Source: Acetobacterium sp. KB-1 (lineage in GTDB: Bacteria; Bacillota; Clostridia; Eubacteriales; Eubacteriaceae). From it: 64,000 bases of DNA. Each line of letters starts with the position of its first letter. The first letter of the stretch is position 1. The position numbers were made by a program, and so were the translations under genes. Where the stretch lies: assembly GCF_003260995.1 (NCBI RefSeq), contig NZ_CP030040.1, positions 248,001 to 312,000 on the forward strand. The letters are read 5' to 3'. The notes under the pieces were generated by a model that saw only the letters and a list, made by a program, of their open reading frames with translations, did no database searches and was not told the origin of the DNA. Below, one piece after another: positions 14,460-26,819 of the stretch.

Positions 14460-15299
14460 ATGATTGAAATAGGAAAAGTACAAACATTGACAATTGAACG
14501 GATAACGCCCATTGGAGCATATTTATCGGATGGATTTGATACAACCGACGTGGTCTTGTTGCCAGAAAAAGAAGTGCAAAAGAATGCTAAAGCTGGTGAT
14601 CAAATCGACGTATTTATTTACCGGGATTCTAAGGATCGTCTGATTTCAACGACTCGAGAACCGAAAATCCAATTAGGCTCATTTGCAGTGCTTAAGGTTG
14701 CAGATGTTACCAAAGTAGGCGCTTTTTTGGAGTGGGGACTGGAGAAAGATCTTTTACTTCCTTACAATGAGCAAACCGTCAAGGTGCAAAAAGGCCGAGA
14801 CTACCTGGTTAATCTGTATGCCGATAAAAGTGACCGCTTATGTGCGACCATGAAAATCTATCCCCTACTGAAAGTCGGTGGGCCCTACAAATTGGGGGAT
14901 TGGATTGAAGGCTATGTGTATCAGATTAATCCGGAAATTGGTGCTTTTGTGGCTATTGATAATCTGTATCACGGCTTAATTCTGATCAAAGATGCAAATT
15001 CAGACATACATTGCGGGGAAAAAATCCATGCCCGGGTATCCGAAATCCGAAACGACGGAAAACTGGTCTTGAGTCCCAATAAAAAAGCTTATAAAGAAAT
15101 ACCTAAAGATGCTGTTGTTATTCTGACAAAGTTAAACGAAAGTCAAGGTTTCTTGCCGTATAATGATAAAACCGATGCATTTATAATAAAAAAAGAATTT
15201 AATATGAGTAAGAGTTCTTTTAAGCGTGCGGTGGGTAAATTATTAAAAGAGAAAAAAATCAGGATAACAGAAAGAGGCATTGAGAAAAATGGAAAATAA
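14460..15299 (+). CDS. S1-domain RNA-binding protein, CvfB/YitL family
   Basis: CvfB-family RNA-binding protein with tandem S1-like OB domains and a C-terminal winged helix. The first (~1-65) and second (~66-140) OB units share the pattern of a glycine-containing strand followed by VLLPEKEV or LLLPYNEQ. A third unit (~145-205) contains GAFVAIDNLYHGLI, close to a canonical S1 motif. Residues ~215-279 form the winged helix (FNMSKSSFKRAVGKLLKEKK). Staphylococcal CvfB influences virulence gene expression; the role here is unknown. SD gaggtg precedes the ATG. Its end overlaps the next gene by 11 bases. Confidence 0.88.
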   Translation: MIEIGKVQTLTIERITPIGAYLSDGFDTTDVVLLPEKEVQKNAKAGDQIDVFIYRDSKDRLISTTREPKIQLGSFAVLKVADVTKVGAFLEWGLEKDLLLPYNEQTVKVQKGRDYLVNLYADKSDRLCATMKIYPLLKVGGPYKLGDWIEGYVYQINPEIGAFVAIDNLYHGLILIKDANSDIHCGEKIHARVSEIRNDGKLVLSPNKKAYKEIPKDAVVILTKLNESQGFLPYNDKTDAFIIKKEFNMSKSSFKRAVGKLLKEKKIRITERGIEKNGK

Positions 15300-16461
15300 A
15301 AAATCCCGGGTCGTTATTATGGGGTGTGAATCCTATGACAATGAACTGGTTTATGAAAAACTAAAGTCAGCTGTGGAACTTCTTGGCGGGATTGAACAAT
15401 TCGTAAACAGGCAAGAGCGGATTTTGCTCAAACCCAATCTACTCAGAGGAAAAACGCCAGACGCTGCGGTTACCACACATCCAGCAGTATTTGAAGCGAT
15501 GATCCGATTGCTACAAGAGGCAGATTACAACCGCCTTTTCTATGGCGATTCGCCTGGCTTTGGTTCTCCCGCCGGAGCTGCGAAAGAAAGCGGTCTCGCG
15601 GCCATTGCGGCGCAGTATGAGGTACCCTTAAAAGATTTCAGTAGCGGTCAGCAGATGGATTTCCTGCTTGGCATCGGAACCAAGAAATTTGATATCGCCC
15701 AGGGGGTTTTAGAGAGCGATGCCATCATCAGTCTTTCAAAAATGAAAACCCATGGCCTGACCCGGATCACCGGGGCGATCAAAAACCAATTCGGTTGCGT
15801 CTACGGATTAAATAAAGGGATGTCCCATGCCCATTATCCGAATGTCAGAATTTTTTCAAAAATGTTGGTAGATTTGAATCGCTATCTGATCCCAAAGCTG
15901 AGGCTTTTTGTGATGGATGGAATTGTTGCCATGGAAGGTAATGGGCCGGCATCGGGAAAACCCGTTCCCATGAAGGTGTTGCTTGTATCTGACGATCCCG
16001 TTGCTTTAGATGCGACTTTTGCCAGAATGATCAATCTGGATCCCACCTTTATCCCAACCATTACCTATGGTGAAGAAATGGAGCTGGGCTACTGGACCGA
16101 AGAAAACATTGAAATGTTGGGAGAACCCCTCGAAAAATTTTATAAGCCTGACTTTGATGTGGTTCGGATTCCTGTCCATGAAGGTGAACCATCGACCCTT
16201 TCGTTTTTTAAACCGATACAGGATTTTATTATTCAAAAGCCGGTGGTTGATAAGGAAAAGTGCATCGGTTGTGGCATCTGCGAAGCGAGCTGTCCGGTTG
16301 AGAAAAAAGCCATCCGCATTGTTAATCGCAAGCGCAGAAAATATCCGTTGTATTTTTACAGCCGTTGTATACGCTGTTACTGTTGTCAGGAAATGTGCCC
16401 GGTCGGCGCTATTTCAGTCAAAACGCCACTCCTGGGAAAATTAACAATTTATAAAGACTAA
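15289..16461 (+). CDS. DUF362 iron-sulfur protein with C-terminal 2x[4Fe-4S] ferredoxin domain
   Basis: A 390-aa protein with an N-terminal DUF362 domain (~1-290), including ILLKPNLLRGKTPDAAVTTHP near 40-60, YGDSPGFGSPAG near 85 and KMKTHGLTRITGAIKNQFG near 155. The bacterial ferredoxin domain (~315-385) holds two CX2CX2CX3C clusters: CIGCGICEASCP and CIRCYCCQEMCP. Such proteins are frequent in anaerobes and are presumed electron carriers, but their partner is unknown. The likely start is ATG 15289; an in-frame TTG lies at 15280. It overlaps the S1 protein gene, so the two are probably cotranscribed. Confidence 0.87.
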   Translation: MENKKSRVVIMGCESYDNELVYEKLKSAVELLGGIEQFVNRQERILLKPNLLRGKTPDAAVTTHPAVFEAMIRLLQEADYNRLFYGDSPGFGSPAGAAKESGLAAIAAQYEVPLKDFSSGQQMDFLLGIGTKKFDIAQGVLESDAIISLSKMKTHGLTRITGAIKNQFGCVYGLNKGMSHAHYPNVRIFSKMLVDLNRYLIPKLRLFVMDGIVAMEGNGPASGKPVPMKVLLVSDDPVALDATFARMINLDPTFIPTITYGEEMELGYWTEENIEMLGEPLEKFYKPDFDVVRIPVHEGEPSTLSFFKPIQDFIIQKPVVDKEKCIGCGICEASCPVEKKAIRIVNRKRRKYPLYFYSRCIRCYCCQEMCPVGAISVKTPLLGKLTIYKD

Positions 16462-16563: not shown

Positions 16564-18210
16564 GTGATTCCACTGTTAGCATCAAAATTAATTTTAAAAT
16601 GTCTCGAACGAGAAAATGTTGAGTATGTGTTTGGTTATCCGGGAGGTGCCTTGCTGCCTCTCTATGAAGCATTCAGAACATCTCCGGTAAAGCATATTTT
16701 AGTGCGCAACGAACAGACAGCACCCCATTATGCGAGTGGATATGCCAGAGAATCTGGGCGTGTTGGCGTATGTTTAGCAACATCCGGACCTGGTGCAACT
16801 AATCTGGTAACAGGTATTGCAACCGCTTACCTTGATTCAATTCCAATTGTCGCCATCACCGGCCAGGTGGATCGGGCGCTGATCGGAACAGACGCCTTTC
16901 AGGAGGCAGATATCACTGGTGCAACCGCTCCCTTTACAAAACATAGTTATCTTGTTCAGAGTGCGGCGGACATTCCGAGAATTATTAGAGAAGCTTTTCA
17001 CATCGCGTCAACAGGTCGTCCCGGGCCAGTTTTGATCGATATTCCCAGAGATGTTCAGCTTGAAAATGTTAAAACCGGGCTGACTTGTGACAAGGTTGAC
17101 ATTATGGGGTATAAACCCAATTTAAACGGCCACAGCGGACAGATTAAACGAGCCATCAAAAAGATTAAAGAAGCGGAAAAACCAGTTATTTATGCTGGTG
17201 GTGGCGTTGTGCTGGGAAAGGCTCAAAAGGAACTGCTTGCTTTTGCTGAGAAAAACAAGATTCCGGTAATTACCTCACTGATGGGGATTGGTGCGTTTCC
17301 GGAAGATCATCCACTATACTGTGGTATTGTCGGTAGCCACGGCTATAAGTATTCCAATGTTGTAATGAACGGTGCCGATTTAATCATTAATATTGGTGCC
17401 CGAATGTCCAACCGGGCCACATCCCATCTGACTAAATTTGAAAAAGACACCGATTTTGTTCATATTGATATCGATCCAGCGGAAATTGGCAAAAACATGG
17501 AAACAAATATTCCGATTGTTGGGGATGCAAAGACTGTTTTATCGGAGCTGATTCAAAAAGATACCTTAGTAGAACATAACGCCTGGCTTGCTGAAATCGA
17601 AAACATTCGCAGTGAAAATCCGCTCGTTTATGATGCCGATCCTCCTTGTAGCGATCTGATCAATCCAAAAATACTATTTAAGGATATGTCTGAAATGACC
17701 GCGGATGACGCGACGGTTGTCGGTGATGTGGGATTAAATCAGATCTGGTCGGCCTTGTATTACCAGATTATTAAAAACCGAAAATACTATACTTCTGGTG
17801 GATTAGGGACGATGGGCTACAGTATTCCAGCAGCCTGCGGTGCGTCTTTCGCAACCCTAGACAAGCCTAAGGAAATTTTCATCGTCTGCGGTGATGGCAG
17901 TTTCCAGATGAGTATGGGTGAACTGGGAGTCATTGCTGAACATCAGTTAAATGTTAATATCATTCTGATTACCAATTCCAAGCTGGGGATGGTACGGCAG
18001 CTACAGTTTGATAACTATGGAAAAGGACATTATAGCGGAACGGATATTAATTTTGACGTTGATTTTATGAAGCTGGCTGAAGCCTATGGTATAAAAAATT
18101 ATAAGGTTGATAAAAACGTCGACTTTAACAAGGTGCTACCGGAAGCGATTAAACACCAGGGCCCGACCTTGATTCAATGCCAGGTTCATCCGGATTTCAT
18201 AAGAATATAG
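16564..18210 (+). CDS. ilvB: Acetolactate synthase large subunit
   Basis: TPP-dependent enzyme that condenses pyruvate into acetolactate, or pyruvate with 2-ketobutyrate, at the first common step of Val/Leu/Ile synthesis. The TPP N-domain has FGYPGGALLPLYEA with the catalytic Glu in RNEQTAPHYASGYAR; the central FAD/TH3 domain and the C-domain (GDGSFQMSMGELG, then NSKLGM) follow. About 548 aa. Start choice is odd: GTG 16564 lies inside the SD (aaagggag), while CTG 16573, which would begin MLASKLILKC, is 8 nt from it and fits homologous N-termini better. Cotranscribed with ilvN, 11 bp downstream. Confidence 0.94.
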   Translation: MIPLLASKLILKCLERENVEYVFGYPGGALLPLYEAFRTSPVKHILVRNEQTAPHYASGYARESGRVGVCLATSGPGATNLVTGIATAYLDSIPIVAITGQVDRALIGTDAFQEADITGATAPFTKHSYLVQSAADIPRIIREAFHIASTGRPGPVLIDIPRDVQLENVKTGLTCDKVDIMGYKPNLNGHSGQIKRAIKKIKEAEKPVIYAGGGVVLGKAQKELLAFAEKNKIPVITSLMGIGAFPEDHPLYCGIVGSHGYKYSNVVMNGADLIINIGARMSNRATSHLTKFEKDTDFVHIDIDPAEIGKNMETNIPIVGDAKTVLSELIQKDTLVEHNAWLAEIENIRSENPLVYDADPPCSDLINPKILFKDMSEMTADDATVVGDVGLNQIWSALYYQIIKNRKYYTSGGLGTMGYSIPAACGASFATLDKPKEIFIVCGDGSFQMSMGELGVIAEHQLNVNIILITNSKLGMVRQLQFDNYGKGHYSGTDINFDVDFMKLAEAYGIKNYKVDKNVDFNKVLPEAIKHQGPTLIQCQVHPDFIRI

Positions 18211-18221
18211 GGAGAATGGTT

Positions 18222-18719
18222 ATGGAGAAAAAAACCTGTTTATCATTACTGGTAGAAAATAATTTTGGTGTATTAAGCCGCATTTCAGGGCTTTTTGCAC
18301 GACGCGGTTATAATATTGACAGCTTGACAGTAGGTACTACCGAGAATGCCGAGCTTTCCCGGATTACCATTACTGTTACCGGAGACGATCAAATTCTAAC
18401 CCAAATAAAGAAACAATTAAATAAACTCATTGATGTGATTACGGTTATTGAACTTAAACCCGATGATTCCATTATTCGAGAGTTGGTTTTTATTAAGGTG
18501 AAGGCAGATGACACCACCCGTTCTCAGATTGTCGAGATTGCCAATATGTTCCGGGCCAATATTGTTGATGTATCCAGAGAAAGTCTGGTCATTGAAATTA
18601 CCGGTACCCGATATAAAATTGAAGGCTTCTTTGAAATGGTTGAACCCTATGGTATTTTAGAGTTCGTCCGATCTGGAGATACTGGTTTGCAGCGGGGCGG
18701 AAAGATTCTTTCGGTCTAA
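18222..18719 (+). CDS. ilvN: Acetolactate synthase small (regulatory) subunit
   Basis: Regulatory partner of IlvB; gives full activity and valine feedback. The start is ATG 18222 (MEKKTCLSLLVENN), with SD ggag 7 nt upstream; the nearby ATG 18216 is too close to it. The N-terminal ACT domain contains NNFGVLSRISGLFARRGYNI, the valine-binding signature, followed by the C-terminal ALS_SSU domain (RELVFIKVKAD onward) ending in GILEFVRSG. 165 aa, typical. The operon stops here at a terminator; ilvC and leu genes are not in the window. Confidence 0.95.
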   Translation: MEKKTCLSLLVENNFGVLSRISGLFARRGYNIDSLTVGTTENAELSRITITVTGDDQILTQIKKQLNKLIDVITVIELKPDDSIIRELVFIKVKADDTTRSQIVEIANMFRANIVDVSRESLVIEITGTRYKIEGFFEMVEPYGILEFVRSGDTGLQRGGKILSV

Positions 18720-18770: not shown

Positions 18771-18807
18771 AAAGACCCTTTGAAGACATTTTTTCAAGGG
18801 TCTTTTT
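18771..18807 (+). terminator. Rho-independent terminator after ilvN
   Basis: AAAGACCCTTTGAA (18771-18784) pairs with TTCAAGGGTCTTT across a short loop and runs into a T-rich tail. It ends the ilvBN transcript. Confidence 0.87.
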
Positions 18808-19290: not shown

Positions 19291-20464
19291 ATGGGATTAA
19301 ATTGGTTTAGAGTTCCAAAAGACATCGTATTTGGGGAAGGAGCACTTTCATATTTAGCGGGGCTTGAAGGTAAAAGAGCGACACTTGTCACTGGTGGCAG
19401 CTCAATGAGAAAGAATGGATTCCTGGATGAAGCAAAAGCACAGCTCGAAAAAGCAGGCATGGAAGTGTCTATTGTTGATGGCGTTGAGCCAAATCCATCA
19501 ATTGAAACAGTCGTTCGTGGGGGCCAGGAAATGGCAGAATTTGGTCCGGACTGGATCGTTGCCATTGGTGGTGGATCAGCATTAGATGCGGCTAAAATCA
19601 TGTGGGTATACTATGAATATCCGGACACTGTTTTTGAAGATCTGGTTGCTGGAAAGTTTCCAAAGCTTAGAACAAAGGCAAAATTTATCGCAGTGCCTTC
19701 AACCAGCGGAACGGCCTCAGAAATTACCGCCTTTTCAGTGATTACCGACACTAAAAACCATATAAAATACCCCTTGGTATCGTATGAAATGACGCCAGAC
19801 ATCGCTTTACTAGATGCTGTCATTCCCTCGAAAATGCCAGCTCATATTACAGCCAATACGGGCATGGACGTATTGGCTCATGCTGTGGAAGCTTGGGTCT
19901 CAACAGAAGCCACAAGTTTTACAGATCCATTAGCTTATGAAGCGATTCGGCTGGTATTAAAACAATTGCCAGTGGCGTTTAAACAACCCAATGATATTAA
20001 AGCCAGAGAAGATATGCATAATGCCTCAGCACTTGCCGGGATGGCCTTTACAAATGCTTCACTTGGTCTTATTCATAGTCTGGCACATAAAATTGGTGGT
20101 GAATTTGGAATTACCCACGGCCTTACGGCCTTACGGCCTTGCAAATGCGATATTAATGCCATATATTATTGATTACAATCGAAAAGCAACCAATAAAGTT
20201 GAAGAATTGGAAAAACAATTAGGAATTGAAAACTTAACGGTCGCTATTCAAGATTTAAATAAACGTTTAAACATTCCATTGACGCTAAAAGAAGTTGATG
20301 AAGTTGAAATCAATGAAAAAGAATACCTTGAAGTGATTGACAGAATGAGTAAAAATGCTTTTGGAGATCCCTGCACATTGACGAACCCCAGACAGTCATC
20401 CCCGGAAGATGTGAAAAAAATCTATGAATGCGCTTTTTATGGAACATCGGCTTTAGAAATTTAG
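19291..20464 (+). pseudogene. Iron-containing alcohol dehydrogenase, frameshifted by tandem repeat
   Basis: Group III (Fe-dependent, NAD(P)H) alcohol dehydrogenase of the butanol/propanediol dehydrogenase type, which interconverts alcohols and aldehydes. The first ~277 codons are intact: GGGSALDAAKI (cofactor site, ~94), DVLAHAVEAW (metal Asp/His), GLIHSLAHKIGG and ITHG (metal His). Directly after the last metal His, the unit GGCCTTAC occurs twice ahead of GGCCTTGC (20119-20142). Compared with the family sequence HGLANAI, this is 16 extra bases that shift the frame and stop the protein at 20172. The rest (ANAILMPY to GTSALEI) continues intact in another frame to 20464. SD aaggagg is excellent. 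Confidence 0.88.
20119..20142 (+). repeat. 8-bp tandem repeat inside adh
   Basis: GGCCTTAC, GGCCTTAC and GGCCTTGC stand in tandem. Removing two units, or adding one, would restore the adh reading frame, so copy-number slippage could switch the gene. Confidence 0.85.
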
Positions 20465-20515
20465 TTAACAAAAAAATACTAAAGATAACAAAATAATACT
20501 GATAGAATTACAATT

Positions 20516-20577
20516 GCGGGTGATTCGTACCGATGCACAAGCTGATAAAAAATTGTGCTCGGGAACGGGTGACCCGC
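20516..20577 (+). ncRNA. 25+25-nt imperfect hairpin between adh and the stn operon
   Basis: Arm 20516-20540 pairs with arm 20553-20577 at about 20 of 25 positions (two G-U), with a 12-nt A-rich loop. The base is GCGGGT/ACCCGC and the top GCACAA/TTGTGC. Only a loose T stretch follows (20584-20590), so it may be a terminator for adh or a structured leader upstream of stnA. The 365-bp gap (20465-20829) otherwise holds AT-rich sequence, a small dyad ATGGT/ACCAT near 20676-20695 and no clear promoter. Confidence 0.45.
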
Positions 20578-20829
20578 TTGAAATTTTTACCGCACGAACC
20601 AGTTGTTTATTATGAAACCGTAACCAGAGAATTAATTTAATAGAAAATTTTCTTTTTTGCTTTTAACTATTGGTAAATATGGTAAACTAACCATGGACAC
20701 TCCTTAAGGCGAATCGTCTTCAAATCTGTATTTTTTTTAGTCCGTAGGGAGTATGTTAAAAAAAACGTTTATTACTAGCATTAGTGTTTGCTGATGCCAA
20801 TTATTAATTGAACCCGAAAGGAGTTTTAC

Positions 20830-21396
20830 ATGAATCAAGAAAAACATGAACATGGATGTAGCTGTGGTTGTCATGGAGATCAACCAAAGCCTTTTGAGGA
20901 ACTGGATCCGGTTTTGGACCACTACGCCGACATCCCCGGAAGTCTGATCACCATCATGCAGAAAGCTCAGGAACTGTACGGCTTTTTATCGGTTGCTCTG
21001 ATGCGTCATATTGCGGTGGAAACCAATACCAGCATTGCTAAAGTTTACGGGGTAGCTACTTTTTATACCCAGTTTAGGTTTGAACCGGTAGGAAAATACC
21101 TGATCATGCTATGCCAGGGAACTGCCTGTCATGTCAACGGGTCCAAACTGGTAGAAGAAGCGGTGATGGATTACCTGGAGATCAATGAAGGTGAGACCAC
21201 AGCAGATGGTCTGTTTACCCTCAACAACGTCGCTTGTCTGGGGTGCTGCAGCTTATCTCCGGTGATGATGATCAATGATGATACCTATGGACAACTGACC
21301 AAAGAAAAGGTAACCCGCATTCTGGCTGAGCTAAAAGAAAATGCCAGCAGCGGTGCCAACGGAGCAGAACAGCTTGCGCAGGAGGTGACAGCATGA
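20830..21396 (+). CDS. stnA: NuoE-like [2Fe-2S] subunit of a bifurcating transhydrogenase (StnA-like)
   Basis: Thioredoxin-fold [2Fe-2S] protein of the NuoE/HydC family, 188 aa. The cluster ligands are visible as CQGTAC (~95-100) and CLGCC (~136-140), the CX4C...CX3C pattern. ATFYTQFRFEPVGKY is the family core. Unusual is a Cys/His-rich N-terminal tail, HEHGCSCGCH (residues 6-15), outside the known fold. It overlaps the next gene by 4 bases (ATGA). With the following NuoF-like and NuoG/GltD-like subunits, the set matches the StnABC transhydrogenase described from Sporomusa ovata; the symbol rests on that domain match. HydC of an Fe-Fe hydrogenase is the alternative, but no H-cluster protein is present. 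Confidence 0.85.
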   Translation: MNQEKHEHGCSCGCHGDQPKPFEELDPVLDHYADIPGSLITIMQKAQELYGFLSVALMRHIAVETNTSIAKVYGVATFYTQFRFEPVGKYLIMLCQGTACHVNGSKLVEEAVMDYLEINEGETTADGLFTLNNVACLGCCSLSPVMMINDDTYGQLTKEKVTRILAELKENASSGANGAEQLAQEVTA

Positions 21397-23144
21397 AAAT
21401 TGTAATTGGAGCTGGTAGCTGCGGGATTGCTGCCGGAGCACACAAGGTGCAGACTGCTTTTGAAGCCATCCTTGCTGAAAAAAACCTGGACTTGACCATT
21501 GAACAAACGGGGTGTATTGGTACTTGTTACTTGGAACCAATTGTTGACCTGATTACTGAGGACGGTAAAAAACTAACCTTTGTTAATGTTACAACTGCCG
21601 ATGCCCGACGAATTGTTGAGGATTATGTGCTGGGCGAGGATGAGCTGAAAGATTTGCAGATCTCGGATTCTGATCTTACCATGATCGGAAAACAAAAGCG
21701 GATTGTTTTGCGTAACTCCGGCATCATCGATCCCGAGCGGATTGAAGACTATCAGGCGGTAGATGGTTACCTAGCTGCTAAAAAATGTCTCACTGAACTA
21801 TCCCCGGAAGAGATTATTGAAACTGTTAAAATAGCGGGTTTAAAAGGTCGGGGCGGTGCCGGATTTCCGACCTGGTTCAAATGGGACGCCGCTAGAAAAT
21901 CACCCGGAAAAACCAAGTACATGGTCTGTAATGCCGACGAAGGCGATCCCGGTGCTTTCATGGACCGATCTGTTCTTGAAAGTGATCCCCATGCTTTGAT
22001 CGAAGGAATGCTAATCGGTGCTAAAGCCATTGGCGCCAATGAAGGGGTTATCTACGTCCGGGCTGAGTATCCCCTGGCGATTGTACGTTTACAAAAAGCC
22101 ATTGATCAGGCACGGGAAAATGGTTTTTTGGGTAATGACATCTTTGAAACCGGATTCGACTTTGATCTGCGTATCAAAGCCGGTGCCGGTGCCTTTGTCT
22201 GTGGTGAAGAAACGGCGCTGATTGCTTCATTAGAAGGCGAACGCGGCATGCCCCGATTAAAACCGCCCTTCCCGGCCCAGAAAGGCTACTGGAATGCGCC
22301 AACCAATATCAATAACGTCGAAACCTTTGCCAATGTTCCCTGGATTTTTAGAAACGGTGGCGAAGCCTACGCGGCTTTGGGTACTGCTGAGAGCAAAGGG
22401 ACTAAGGTTTTTGCTTTAACGGGCAAAGTTAAACGGGGTGGCTTGGTAGAGATTCCCATGGGACTAACCTTAAGAGATGTTATTTACGAGATTGGTGGGG
22501 GGATTAAAGCAGATATCGCCTTTAAAGCCGTTCAAATGGGAGGACCATCCGGAGGATGTATCCCGGCGAGTCTCCTTGATACCCAGATCGACTACGCTGA
22601 AATCACTAAAACCGGCGCGATCATGGGCTCCGGTGGGATGGTGGTTATGGATGAAAACACCTGTATGGTCGACATGGCCCGGTTTTTCCTCGACTTCACC
22701 TGTAAAGAGTCCTGTGGTAAATGCACTTACTGTCGGGTTGGTACCACAAGAATGCTGGAAATCCTCAATCGAATTACTCAGGGCGAGGGTCTGGACGGTG
22801 ACATCGAACTGCTAGAAGAACTTTGTTATAAGATTAAGGATGGTTCCATGTGTGGTTTGGGTCAGACAGCGCCTAACCCGGTGTTAACCACCATCAAATA
22901 TTTCCGAAACGAATATGAAGATCATATTTATCATAAAAAATGCACCGCTAAAAGCTGCAAGCCGCTATTGACCTATACGATTGATAAAGAAAAATGTGTC
23001 GGTTGTGGGGCCTGTAAGAAGAATTGCCCTGTGGATGCGATTACCGGCGAGAAGAAAAAAGTGCATGAAATCAGTCAGGACATTTGTATCAAGTGTGGCA
23101 AATGCTTCTCTGTCTGTAAATTTGATTCTGTCATCATTGACTAG
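21393..23144 (+). CDS. stnB: NuoF-like FMN/NADH subunit of a bifurcating transhydrogenase (StnB-like)
   Basis: NADH-binding flavoprotein, 583 aa, with the domain order of HydB/StnB: an N-terminal thioredoxin-like domain with Cys 10, 41 and 45; the FMN/NADH domain with GRGGAGFPT (~152) and CNADEGDPGAFMDR; an SLBB segment; the NuoF [4Fe-4S] motif ESCGKCTYC (~440); and a C-terminal two-cluster ferredoxin (CVGCGACKKNCP and CIKCGKCFSVCK, ~537-575). In HydABC/StnABC this subunit with StnA forms the FMN bifurcation module exchanging electrons between NAD and ferredoxin. It overlaps stnA by 4 bases. Confidence 0.88.
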   Translation: MKIVIGAGSCGIAAGAHKVQTAFEAILAEKNLDLTIEQTGCIGTCYLEPIVDLITEDGKKLTFVNVTTADARRIVEDYVLGEDELKDLQISDSDLTMIGKQKRIVLRNSGIIDPERIEDYQAVDGYLAAKKCLTELSPEEIIETVKIAGLKGRGGAGFPTWFKWDAARKSPGKTKYMVCNADEGDPGAFMDRSVLESDPHALIEGMLIGAKAIGANEGVIYVRAEYPLAIVRLQKAIDQARENGFLGNDIFETGFDFDLRIKAGAGAFVCGEETALIASLEGERGMPRLKPPFPAQKGYWNAPTNINNVETFANVPWIFRNGGEAYAALGTAESKGTKVFALTGKVKRGGLVEIPMGLTLRDVIYEIGGGIKADIAFKAVQMGGPSGGCIPASLLDTQIDYAEITKTGAIMGSGGMVVMDENTCMVDMARFFLDFTCKESCGKCTYCRVGTTRMLEILNRITQGEGLDGDIELLEELCYKIKDGSMCGLGQTAPNPVLTTIKYFRNEYEDHIYHKKCTAKSCKPLLTYTIDKEKCVGCGACKKNCPVDAITGEKKKVHEISQDICIKCGKCFSVCKFDSVIID

Positions 23145-23158
23145 AAAGGAGTGGGAGA

Positions 23159-26100
23159 ATGAAACAATATAAAATGAACATCGATGGAAAAGAAGTAACC
23201 GGTCGTCCGGGACAAACCATTTTAGAAGTAGCCCGGGAAAATGCAATAGATATTCCCACCCTATGCTATGACGAACGCCTGGAGATTTATGGGTCCTGCG
23301 GACTCTGTGTCGTAGAGGTTGCTGGCATCCCCAAAATTTTAAAAGCCTGTGCCACCGAAATCACCGATAATATGGTGGTAAACACGAAGACCCCCCGGGT
23401 CATTGAATCCCGAAAAACCAATCTGGAGCTGTTGCTCTCAAAACATATTGGGGACTGTGTAGCACCCTGTAAACGGGCTTGTCCCGGCACCACTGACTGT
23501 CAGGGGTATGTTGGCTTAATCGCCAATGGTGAATTTGCCGAAGCCTTAAAGCTGATCAAAGAACAATTGCCATTGCCTGGGGCGATTGGCCGGGTCTGTC
23601 CACATCCTTGCGAAACGGCCTGTCGCCGGGGCGAAGTTGATGAACCCATCGCCATCGCCTGGCTCAAACGTTTTGCCGCTGACTTCGATATGACTCATGA
23701 CATGTTTATGCCCGAAATCGCAAAAGCGAGTGGCAAGACAATCGGGATCATCGGTGGTGGACCGGGCGGACTTACCGCTGCCTACTATCTGATTCAATCC
23801 GGTCACGCTGTTACCATCTATGACGCTATGCCCAAAATGGGGGGGATGCTCCGCTATGGAATCCCTGAATATCGATTACCCAAAGGGGTGGTGGATGAAG
23901 AAGTGGAATTGATAAAAGAGATGGGCGTTGTCTTTAAAAATAACACCCGGGTCGGTGTCGATATTCCCTTTGAAACCATCCGTAAAAACCACGATGCTGT
24001 TTATGTCGCATTAGGTGCCTGGACGAGTTCCGGACTACGGTGTGAAGGCATTGACGCCAAAGGGGTCATCGGTGGGATCGAATTGCTGCAACAGGTAGCC
24101 AATAACGAACCCATTGTGCTTGGCGAAAAAGTTGCCATCGTCGGTGGTGGCAACACCGCCATGGATGCCTGCCGAACCGCACTGCGACTTGGTGCCAAAG
24201 AAGTCTATAATATCTATCGTCGAACCAAAGCAGAAATGCCGGCGGAAGAAATTGAAATTATCGAAGCTGAAGAAGAAGGGGTTATCTTTAAAAATTTGAC
24301 CAACCCCATTGAAGTTATTAAAGGGACGGATGGACAGATCGTCAAAATTCGACTTCAAAAAATGGCCCTGGGAGAACCGGATGCCAGCGGTCGTCGATCG
24401 CCAGTTCCTATCGACGGTGAAGAAGAGATCATTGATGTCGATACATTGATTCTGGCCATCGGCCAGGGGATCAATCCCAAAGGACTAGATGACCTGGAAC
24501 TGACCAAATGGAACACCGTTCTGGCCGATGAACAAACCTTCCGAACGAATTTAGACGGCGTTTTTGCTGGTGGAGATTGTATTAACAGCGGTGCTTCCAT
24601 TGTCATTAAAGCCGTCGGCGATGCCAAAAAAGCGGTTCCTTTTATCGAAGGATACTTAAGTGGAGAAGCTATTGCTTACCATGAACCCTACTTTGTGATT
24701 CGTGAATCGGTGGATCAGGACTATTTGGAAAGCATTAAGAAAAACAAACGACCGGTGATGACTCACCTGGCACCAGATGCCCGTAATGATAATTTTCTGG
24801 AAGTGGTGGAAGGATTCAGCCCGCTTCAAGCGGTGGAAGAAGGAAAGCGTTGTCTTGAATGTGGCTGTCAGGATTACTTCGAATGTAAGCTGGTCGCCTA
24901 TGCCAACGAATATGAGGTTAAGCCAGAGCGCTTTAAAGGCAAGAACCCGGAAGCAAAAATCCAGGATGACCACCCCTTTGTAATTCGGGATAACAGCAAG
25001 TGCATTACCTGCGGCCTTTGCGTCCGGGTCTGCGAGGATATTATCGGCGTTTCAGCGTTAGGTCTGGTGGATCGTGGTTTTGAGACCATTGTGGAACCGG
25101 CCCTGCGCCAGCCTCTTAAAGATACAAGCTGCGTCAGTTGTGGACAATGTATTGCTGTTTGTCCCACAGGCGCCTTAAGAGAAGGGCTTATTGGCATTAA
25201 ACAAGTGCCCATGGATACAGATAAAACCGAATCGACCTGCGGTTATTGTTCGGCCGGTTGCCAAATTATCATTGAGTCGAAGGGCGATACCATTATCAAG
25301 GCCATTCCGCAGAAAAACCACCAGGATATCAATCAAGGTGTTATGTGCGGTCGGGGGCGATTCGGTACCAATCTGGTGCAGTGGGAAAATCGACTGACGA
25401 CCCCGTTGATTCGCAATAAACAGGGTGAACTGGAAGAATCCAGTTGGTACGATGCCTTTGTGATGATTGCAAAAAAATCCCAGAGCATTGCTGCTCGATA
25501 CGGAAGTGATGCCGTAAAAATGGGCATATCACCTAAATATACAAATGAAGAAATTTTTAACATGACTCAACTGGCTAAGGTGCTTCGAGCAGAGACCTTT
25601 AGTTTTTCCAATCGGGAACAGGGTGAAGACACGGTTCTGCCTGGCAACGATGCAATTGGCGACATGAATGCAATTGTGACCGCGGATACCATTCTGGTGC
25701 TCGGATTGTTACCAGTGAACAACCCCATTGTCAAATATAAACTGACTCAGGCATCAAAAAAAGGCGCCAATATTTTTGTCATTAACCACTTAGAAAGTGG
25801 TTATGATCATATCGCGGATGAGTTTATTACTGAATGTGATGATCTTGAATTCCTGGGAGAAATCACCAGGTATGTCCTTGAAAATGGTAAACTGAAAGCG
25901 GATGTGACAAATTTGGACACATTAAAAGCATCGCTTGCGGATTTTGAAATAGGTGATGAAGCTCAAATTATTGGTGAAGGCCTGGTTAATGCTAAAAACC
26001 TGGTCGTCGTTATGGGTGATAAGTATATCACCGCAGAAGCTTCGGCCCTGGTTGGCGATATCCTCGGACTCCTTGGCAAATTTGATGGTAAACGTAGTGG

Positions 26101-26665
26101 CATTTTCAGAGTAGCCGTTAAGAACAACAGCCGGGGTTTAAAAGCGCTGGGGGTTGTTAACACACCAACGGTTCTAAAAACGGCGAAAGCGCTGCTGCTC
26201 TTCGGTGAGGAACCCAATGCAGATCTAAGCGGATACGAATTTTTAATGGTTCAGGATACTCACCTGAGTTCGGCTGCCCAGAATGCCGATGTGGTATTGC
26301 CGGCACTGGCTTTCGCGGAAGTGAACGGTACCTTTGTGAACACAGAAGGCCGACTCCTTAAGGTGAAAAAGTCAGTAGAAAATCCGTTGGGAATTAACAA
26401 TATTAAGATGGTTCAGGCAATTGCTGAAATTTTGGCGGAGGATCTTGGCTCAGTTTGTCCAGGAAAAATTCTAAAGGCTATTGGGGAAACAACCCCAGCA
26501 TTTAAAAACGTTGACATTGGTGAGATTCTAAACACCCAAGATCCGGATGCGGTCAGGGTGGAATTTAAGCCTTATAGTAAAGGACGGCTCTTTACCGAGA
26601 TTCCTTATACTGATTACCTGATGAATGAGATTCAAGGGAAGTTGAATCAAGTTATAAAACACTAA
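23159..26665 (+). CDS. stnC: Fused NuoG-like / GltD-like NADPH subunit of a transhydrogenase (StnC-like)
   Basis: A 1168-aa multidomain protein. In order: [2Fe-2S] domain (Cys 36, 47, 50, 64); GltD-type N-terminal Fe-S domain (Cys 100, 104, 108, 114, then 147, 151, 155); FAD domain with GIIGGGPGGLTAA (~196-208); NAD(P)H site VAIVGGGNTAMDA (~323-335); FAD end GVFAGGDC (~470); a two-cluster ferredoxin (CITCGLCVRVC ~615 and CVSCGQCIAVC ~660); and a NuoG/molybdopterin-oxidoreductase-like part opening with CGYCSAGC (~695). This matches StnC, whose GltD-like part binds NADPH as in NfnB. A formate dehydrogenase is less likely, since the catalytic (Se)Cys/His region and partners are not evident. SD aaaggag lies 8 nt before the ATG. 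Confidence 0.87.
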   Translation: MKQYKMNIDGKEVTGRPGQTILEVARENAIDIPTLCYDERLEIYGSCGLCVVEVAGIPKILKACATEITDNMVVNTKTPRVIESRKTNLELLLSKHIGDCVAPCKRACPGTTDCQGYVGLIANGEFAEALKLIKEQLPLPGAIGRVCPHPCETACRRGEVDEPIAIAWLKRFAADFDMTHDMFMPEIAKASGKTIGIIGGGPGGLTAAYYLIQSGHAVTIYDAMPKMGGMLRYGIPEYRLPKGVVDEEVELIKEMGVVFKNNTRVGVDIPFETIRKNHDAVYVALGAWTSSGLRCEGIDAKGVIGGIELLQQVANNEPIVLGEKVAIVGGGNTAMDACRTALRLGAKEVYNIYRRTKAEMPAEEIEIIEAEEEGVIFKNLTNPIEVIKGTDGQIVKIRLQKMALGEPDASGRRSPVPIDGEEEIIDVDTLILAIGQGINPKGLDDLELTKWNTVLADEQTFRTNLDGVFAGGDCINSGASIVIKAVGDAKKAVPFIEGYLSGEAIAYHEPYFVIRESVDQDYLESIKKNKRPVMTHLAPDARNDNFLEVVEGFSPLQAVEEGKRCLECGCQDYFECKLVAYANEYEVKPERFKGKNPEAKIQDDHPFVIRDNSKCITCGLCVRVCEDIIGVSALGLVDRGFETIVEPALRQPLKDTSCVSCGQCIAVCPTGALREGLIGIKQVPMDTDKTESTCGYCSAGCQIIIESKGDTIIKAIPQKNHQDINQGVMCGRGRFGTNLVQWENRLTTPLIRNKQGELEESSWYDAFVMIAKKSQSIAARYGSDAVKMGISPKYTNEEIFNMTQLAKVLRAETFSFSNREQGEDTVLPGNDAIGDMNAIVTADTILVLGLLPVNNPIVKYKLTQASKKGANIFVINHLESGYDHIADEFITECDDLEFLGEITRYVLENGKLKADVTNLDTLKASLADFEIGDEAQIIGEGLVNAKNLVVVMGDKYITAEASALVGDILGLLGKFDGKRSGIFRVAVKNNSRGLKALGVVNTPTVLKTAKALLLFGEEPNADLSGYEFLMVQDTHLSSAAQNADVVLPALAFAEVNGTFVNTEGRLLKVKKSVENPLGINNIKMVQAIAEILAEDLGSVCPGKILKAIGETTPAFKNVDIGEILNTQDPDAVRVEFKPYSKGRLFTEIPYTDYLMNEIQGKLNQVIKH

Positions 26666-26772
26666 AAGTTTATTCATTTTAAAATTCTGAATCGTTTTAG
26701 TAATTACAAGTACTAAATATTTGCTTGCAATATAATTGAGATAAACTGAATAACCAGAGCTTTCTTTCATAC

Positions 26773-26819
26773 AAAAAGTACCGTTTTGATCGTTTACATA
26801 TCAGAACGGTACTTTTTTT
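26773..26819. terminator. Strong terminator after the stn operon, probably bidirectional
   Basis: AAAAAGTACCGTT pairs with AACGGTACTTTTT, extended inward by TGAT/ATCA, around a ~9-nt loop, with A-run and T-run on opposite sides. The rest of the 304-bp gap (26666-26969) shows nothing further that I can support. Confidence 0.87.

Follow-up and report, generated by a model that had tools for sequence, protein, structure and literature searches.

The stretch of DNA considered here, referred to as the window, comprises 64,000 nucleotides of Acetobacterium sp. KB-1 (NCBI RefSeq assembly GCF_003260995.1, contig NZ_CP030040.1, positions 248,001 to 312,000 of the forward strand). Three consecutive genes, stnA, stnB and stnC, are arranged head to tail on its plus strand between window positions 20830 and 26665 (map of open reading frames, ORFs). 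The first of them, stnA (20830..21396), encodes a NuoE/HydC-like [2Fe-2S] subunit of 188 amino acids (aa) with a 2Fe-2S_thioredx domain (PF01257, 168.9 bits), and its stop is overlapped by the start of stnB (21393..23144), whose 583-aa NuoF/HydB-like product contains an FMN/NADH site and shows the Pfam domain order Complex1_51K, SLBB and NADH_4Fe-4S, followed by a C-terminal ferredoxin-like tail (Fer4_21/Fer4_7 at 529-578). The third gene, stnC (23159..26665), encodes a fusion protein of 1168 aa that combines a [2Fe-2S] region, a GltD-like FAD/NADP(H) region and a NuoG/FdhF-like region. Its N-terminal half carries the Pfam domains Fer2_4 (6-78), Fer4_20 (100-180) and Pyr_redox_2 (195-487), while Fer4_7/Fer4_Nqo3 (606-673), Molybdop_Fe4S4 (689-740) and Molybdopterin (745-1090) occupy the C-terminal half. 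A first-pass annotation of the window had described three coupled genes for a NuoE-like protein, a ferredoxin-tailed NuoF-like protein and a 1168-aa GltD-NuoG fusion, and this description was confirmed by the ORFs and Pfam domains, with the addition that the C-terminal part of StnC, previously called only NuoG-like, is molybdopterin-oxidoreductase-like.

A sequence search of the PDB ranked two complexes highest for each of StnA, StnB and StnC, namely the Stn complex of Sporomusa ovata (8oh5) and the 9bov complex. The matches to 8oh5 extended over residues 25-175 of the 188 residues of StnA (8oh5_A, E 7e-54), 1-582 of the 583 residues of StnB (8oh5_B, E 1.4e-267) and 2-1083 of the 1168 residues of StnC (8oh5_C, E 2.1e-276; 9bov_A, E 0). 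The residues C114, K170 and R239, which were probed by mutation in S. ovata StnC and of which K170 was reported as strictly conserved in Stn (PMC10482914), are kept in StnC of Acetobacterium sp. KB-1, and they carry identical numbers because no gap interrupts the first 239 positions of the alignment of StnC with 8oh5_C. Among 24 aligned StnC rows representing 22 genomes of the family, the three residues were conserved in all 23 rows covering them, and all 30 cysteines at StnC positions 36-730 were retained in at least 23 of the 24 rows or in every covering row. StnC also contains an FAD motif (GGGPGGL at 199), and two NADP-type motifs (GGGNTA at 329 and YRRT at 353). These matches over most of the subunit lengths and the retained key residues uphold the earlier proposal that the domain set is that of S. 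ovata Stn, and they support the assignment of the operon as stnABC, encoding a predicted electron-bifurcating transhydrogenase of the Sporomusa type. The Stn of Acetobacterium sp. KB-1 is thus an ordinary representative of an enzyme family already published, and is well supported as such; the enzyme itself is not new, since the occurrence of Stn in Acetobacterium and its near-exclusion with Nfn have already been reported (PMC7483475).

The molybdopterin-oxidoreductase-like domain of StnC, and likewise the presence of a HydABC-type hydrogenase in the genome, would fit a different assignment, in which the three proteins would be part of a hydrogenase or formate dehydrogenase complex with its catalytic subunit encoded at another locus. 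However, StnC reached only 173 bits with the Fdh-alpha model TIGR01591, the cut-off of which is 666, and each of the three subunits has its counterpart in a complete solved complex. The relevant passages on S. ovata Stn, moreover, report no formate activity and describe its FdhF-like domain as catalytically inactive (PMC7483475, PMC10482914). No H-cluster domain was found by Pfam in StnA, StnB or StnC, in agreement with the first-pass annotation. The group A6 [FeFe]-hydrogenase of this organism lies approximately 1.47 Mb from stn on the single genomic contig (C1:1737438-1739162) and has its own nearby ORFs of 604 aa and 157 aa (the latter of NuoE type), which by their size were read as HydB and HydC. 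The partner complex was rejected on the basis of the Pfam content, the Fdh-alpha score and the separate A6 hydrogenase, and we consider it highly improbable.

The genome search, which covered one contig of 3,988,268 bases (C1), revealed no NfnB above the TIGR01316 cut-off; the top match was StnC itself with 330 bits compared to the required 471.75, followed by a 924-aa fusion protein and a GltD encoded beside a glutamate-synthase-like gene. Likewise, no NfnA was found in the genome, both PF10418 matches falling in other proteins, which were read as AsrB-like (beside a sulfite-reductase-like gene) and PyrK-like (beside a PyrD-like gene). The question raised earlier of whether NfnAB is absent from this organism can accordingly be answered in the affirmative at the level of this search. 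The 924-aa GltD-like fusion was considered as a hidden NfnB and rejected, since it did not reach the cut-off of any of the NCBIfam models listed for it at E 1e-30 and the genome yielded no NfnA. As to other sources of NADPH, the genome search detected neither a glucose-6-phosphate dehydrogenase nor a PntB, the same searches having matched 9 and 4, respectively, of 14 known genomes, while a 408-aa protein belonging to PF00180 is encoded, which in our finer reading is isocitrate-dehydrogenase-like.

To place these results in the context of the family, 40 genomes were surveyed, in which Stn was called from a StnC match with no less than 58% identity over 865 residues or more and Nfn from an NfnB above the cut-off. 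Stn was present in 22 genomes and Nfn in 15, no genome possessed both, and three had neither (G028, G037 and G038 in our genome numbering); the "neither" calls are soft because NfnB-like fragments occur in G028 and G037 and the completeness of G038 is 70%. Within the genus, read as Acetobacterium from the nearest named relatives, 16 genomes carry Stn, three carry Nfn (G002, G004 and G014) and none carries both. The distribution of Stn and Nfn in the family is phylogenetically clustered, and since the trees require just two to three changes and therefore contain few independent events, no significance value is attached to the mutual exclusion. A similar trend was described earlier for acetogens, of which 20 out of 48, including A. 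woodii and A. bakii, were listed with Stn in an almost exclusive relationship to Nfn (PMC7483475). A second stnC occurs in two genomes of the genus, G003 and G015 (records of A. dehalogenans and A. wieringae); these second copies (on stretches L151 and L181) cluster together in the StnC tree and are located near genes read as NADH:flavin oxidoreductases, with the contigs breaking inside stnC. G004 possesses a second nfnAB (L152 7015-10284) that is followed by a gene resembling methylenetetrahydrofolate reductase (MTHFR; TIGR00676, below cut-off), a context like that of S. ovata stn beside metVF.

Upstream of stn in the window lie the genes of acetolactate synthase, with which branched-chain amino-acid synthesis begins, ilvB (16564..18210, plus strand) for the large subunit (TIGR00118, 667 bits, above cut-off) and ilvN (18177..18719, plus strand) for the small subunit, which is named from its size and its position beside ilvB and whose ORF start overlaps ilvB, the true start probably lying further in. 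When the coordinates of IlvB, IlvN, StnA-C, NfnA-B and PolA were mapped with a single script on genomic stretches (39 genomes, all of the family set except G038), 30 genomes of the family proved to have ilvB upstream of stn or nfn. The stn genes are located 3' of ilvBN and in the same orientation in 20 of the 22 Stn genomes (in G008 the contig carries just a fragment of ilvN), and in the remaining two, G003 and G015, the contigs begin inside stnC. Similarly, 10 of the 15 Nfn genomes have nfn 3' of ilvBN in the same orientation (some 2.4 kb apart in G036), and G027 and G039 end at contig edges. The block of genes 5' of ilvBN is much the same wherever the stretches reach, with the gene at window positions 15280-16461 having no counterpart ORF in G029 and G031. 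In the three Nfn-bearing Acetobacterium genomes the gene order is ilvB-ilvN-nfnA-nfnB-polA, with nfnAB standing where the relatives hold stnABC, and both the ilvBN and the polA flanks are close to those of the Stn-bearing relatives. On this side of the locus, polA follows stnC on the same contig in 13 of the 16 Stn-bearing members of the genus and is located elsewhere in G011 and G012 (G008 was not judgeable), while outside the genus polA is more than 0.4 Mb away from stn or nfn where both are on one contig (G023, G024, G031 and G034). Between stnC and polA, G017 contains genes resembling an ABC transporter set (L147 9289-12955, reverse complement) and G001 a gene for a 2259-aa protein (L140 12466-19245).

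The order of events within the genus was addressed with trees of the flanking genes. In a PolA tree, which covered 35 of the 40 genomes, the three Nfn genomes fell within a clade (support 100/99) together with 13 Stn genomes, with the Stn-bearing G011 and G012 outside it and the exact sister of the three left unresolved (80/48). A tree of nine neighbouring proteins, calculated by a quick method from 23 genomes that included 15 of the 19 of the genus (without G003, G007, G008 and G015), nested G002, G004 and G014 in Stn-bearing lineages with values of at least 99 in the Shimodaira-Hasegawa-like approximate likelihood ratio test (SH-aLRT) at the enclosing forks and an SH-aLRT of 95 at the fork uniting the ten inner Stn genomes. 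With the same nine-protein data, the approximately unbiased (AU) test rejected the union of the genus's twelve Stn genomes in one clade with a p-value of 5.4e-5; this value is weakened because the group to be tested was chosen with the PolA tree already in view. IlvB of the three Nfn genomes also fell inside the genus, its order being unresolved. The StnC tree (21 rows of the family, some with long branches) follows the main species order, and the StnB tree shows the same deep forks, differing from it in that G017 joins G001 and G006. No donor of the Nfn of G002, G004 and G014 was found among 67 genomes of the order, the nearest other NfnB being 75% identical, and no donor was resolved in the NfnB tree. 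The simplest reading of these trees is that stnABC would have been replaced in place by nfnAB once, in one subclade of Acetobacterium. Two further histories are conceivable, namely an ancestor with both Stn and Nfn that was followed by unequal losses, and a return from an earlier Nfn state.

Several observations weigh against the reading favored here, of a slot for these enzymes that is tied to biosynthetic NADPH supply. In three of the 15 Nfn genomes (G019, G020 and G021) nfn is located away from ilvBN, as are the additional copies of nfn in G004, G030 and G034. A gene read as a transporter lies between ilvN and stnA in G022-G025 and G029, and some genomes harbor other cargo downstream of ilvN, such as an alcohol dehydrogenase or an ABC transporter, so that the pattern could in part be due to a site prone to insertions. 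Furthermore, the product of the isocitrate-dehydrogenase-like gene could be a maker of NADPH too, and Stn therefore need not be the sole source of NADPH. Taken to its full extent, the argument from other cargo would turn the slot into a mere insertion-prone site after ilvN, in which the presence of Stn or Nfn says nothing about function, and the variety of cargo found there (the alcohol dehydrogenase in the window and G013, the ABC transporter-like genes in G017, the 2259-aa protein in G001 and the transporter-like genes in G022-G025 and G029) would be accounted for. However, one of the two enzymes is present in all 30 genomes with a verified ilvBN-linked operon and both types occur together in none of the 40, while cargo other than a transhydrogenase is sporadic. 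In addition, StnC tracks the main species order, as would be expected for a resident gene. We regard an insertion-prone site without functional meaning as unlikely, and favor the recurring slot downstream of ilvBN that holds either Stn or Nfn.

The intervals around the stn genes bear on the question of shared transcription. After ilvN, a terminator-like hairpin with T-run was detected on the plus strand of the window (18777..18807, hairpin 18777-18800), which as a single site is weak evidence because the terminator scan gave 17 sites in the window compared to 12.2 in shuffles. A hairpin of the form ACCGCTG...CAGCGGT after ilvN was found in nine of the 12 Stn genomes with aligned leaders, G001 being without it (in the window and G013 the aligned leader piece lies past an alcohol dehydrogenase gene); a similar hairpin follows ilvN in G004 and G014 and a different one in G002. 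The presence of such hairpins ahead of stn, both in the window and in nine of the 12 aligned genomes, also counts against a close link, in that the neighbours may not share one transcript; a single ilvBN-stn operon is not claimed here, as the hairpins point to separate transcripts. The arrangement suggests that stn and nfn possess promoters of their own and that the breakpoint of the exchange would lie past the post-ilvN hairpin. The promoter scan of the window yielded 29 sites, near the expectation of 25.4 from shuffles, and an Rfam scan of the whole window identified just one tRNA. Between ilvN and stnA, the window contains a frameshift-broken gene for an iron-containing alcohol dehydrogenase (19291..20464, plus strand), the orthologue of which in G013 occupies the same position and is intact with 385 aa. 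At the frameshift point lies an 8-bp tandem array in three copies (20117..20140, plus strand) that is represented by a single copy in G013, and the split gene may reflect decay, an assembly error or an on/off switch of the slippage type. The leader from this gene to stnA (20465..20829, plus strand) resembles that of G013 and is otherwise divergent save near the ribosome-binding region. Downstream of stnC, a hairpin followed by a T-run (26773..26819, plus strand) forms a likely terminator according to its fold, absent from the output of the terminator scan, which has a loop limit of 8. The span 20465..26819 given in the first-pass annotation thus starts at the first base past the broken alcohol dehydrogenase gene, with 365 bases of leader, and ends with this hairpin and T-run.

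If the enzyme works as S. ovata Stn does, NADPH would reduce the FAD in StnC, from where electrons would pass along the StnC iron-sulphur clusters to the FMN of StnB, and the StnAB module would distribute them to NAD+ and ferredoxin. The direction taken in vivo would most likely be the reverse, with NADH and reduced ferredoxin reducing two NADP+, and the NADPH formed in Acetobacterium would most likely be used for biosynthesis, that is for branched-chain amino acids and other products, rather than for the Wood-Ljungdahl pathway. Ketol-acid reductoisomerase, which catalyzes the step after IlvBN, uses NADPH. A service of Stn to the Wood-Ljungdahl pathway, with NADPH delivered to methylenetetrahydrofolate (methylene-THF) dehydrogenase, is the arrangement proposed for S. 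ovata, where stn is located downstream of metVF and the dehydrogenase is described as NADP-specific (PMC7483475), and the MTHFR-like gene after the second nfnAB of G004 would be in line with it. The operon of Acetobacterium sp. KB-1, however, adjoins ilvBN, and for A. woodii, the species to which both of the following reports refer, the pathway was described, unlike that of S. ovata, as operating without NADPH, with a likely anabolic use of the cofactor (PMC7483475), and methylene-THF dehydrogenase was listed as NADH-linked in a model that includes an "NFN reaction" (PMC13279740). We consider the Wood-Ljungdahl role improbable, slightly more so than the insertion-prone site. Of the earlier suggestion that the operon supplies NADPH for methylene-THF or amino-acid synthesis, the amino-acid half gains support because the slot adjacent to ilvBN holds either Stn or Nfn, while the methylene-THF half is not supported, given what is reported for A. 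woodii.

In summary, the best explanation as a whole combines a Stn enzyme, biosynthetic use of NADPH, a slot shared by Stn and Nfn and, in one subclade of the genus, replacement of stnABC in place by nfnAB. We assign it a probability of roughly 0.85, with the catalysis, the direction of electron flow and the fate of the NADPH being deduced. The more specific proposition that two architectures would have been exchanged at least once in Acetobacterium at one ilvBN-adjacent slot with native flanks, and would perform the same job in vivo, namely biosynthetic NADPH supply, appears likely to us, if somewhat less secure. With an in-place replacement, Stn and Nfn would probably be functionally interchangeable. 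The slot exchange would then, if true, represent a natural complementation experiment in which both enzymes do the same job in living cells, that job in this family being the supply of biosynthetic NADPH, and it suggests Nfn as a possible stand-in for Stn when the NADPH supply of acetogens is engineered. The shared slot, the clustered distribution and the proposed exchange within the genus would make the role of Stn and Nfn directly testable.

What looks new in these results is the locus, that is, the alternate occupation of one chromosomal slot beside ilvBN by Stn or Nfn. No such slot was described in the titles and opening parts of abstracts among the papers listed from the open-licence literature on Stn, Nfn, ilvBN, acetolactate synthase and Acetobacterium (supplements lying outside this scope), and no paper treating acetolactate synthase together with NfnAB was found there. 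The main text of PMC7483475 contains neither "ilv" nor "synteny" and, in the parts covered, makes no mention of a slot or exchange; passages of papers in which "ilv" or "acetolactate" was sought contained neither word.

Among known systems, StnABC of S. ovata (8oh5, 8oh9) resembles the operon of the window in its three subunits, gene order, domain order and the StnC residues C114, K170 and R239. Its StnC is listed with 42% identity to that of A. woodii (PMC7483475, Table 2), and its stn genes adjoin metVF, whereas those of Acetobacterium sp. KB-1 adjoin ilvBN. The Stn systems of A. woodii (Awo_c21410) and A. bakii, as given in the same table, come from the same genus, likewise with Stn present and Nfn absent, and differ in nothing essential. 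Of the other solved complexes, 9bov/9bp5 provides chains (9bov) that match all three Stn subunits over most of their length, a paper describing it not having been found in the open-licence literature, while chain A of 9n5u (9n5u/9n5v) is a shorter relative of StnC with 963 aa. NfnAB, a ferredoxin-dependent NADH:NADP+ oxidoreductase, catalyzes the same overall reaction as Stn and fills the same slot in relatives, and its GltD-like NfnB resembles StnC at approximately positions 100-500; in contrast, it consists of two subunits, with an NfnA of another kind than StnA and StnB. Bifurcation is assigned to the FAD of NfnB in Nfn and, in the solved structure of S. ovata Stn, to the HydBC-like StnAB module (PMC10482914). 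This module corresponds to the bifurcating HydBC core of HydABC within the wider HydABC-like (Bfu) family (PMC9304861), and at the level of Pfam, domains similar in kind to the InterPro-defined BfuB and BfuC sets of that family are present here. HydABC contains the H-cluster subunit HydA, in place of which Stn possesses StnC.

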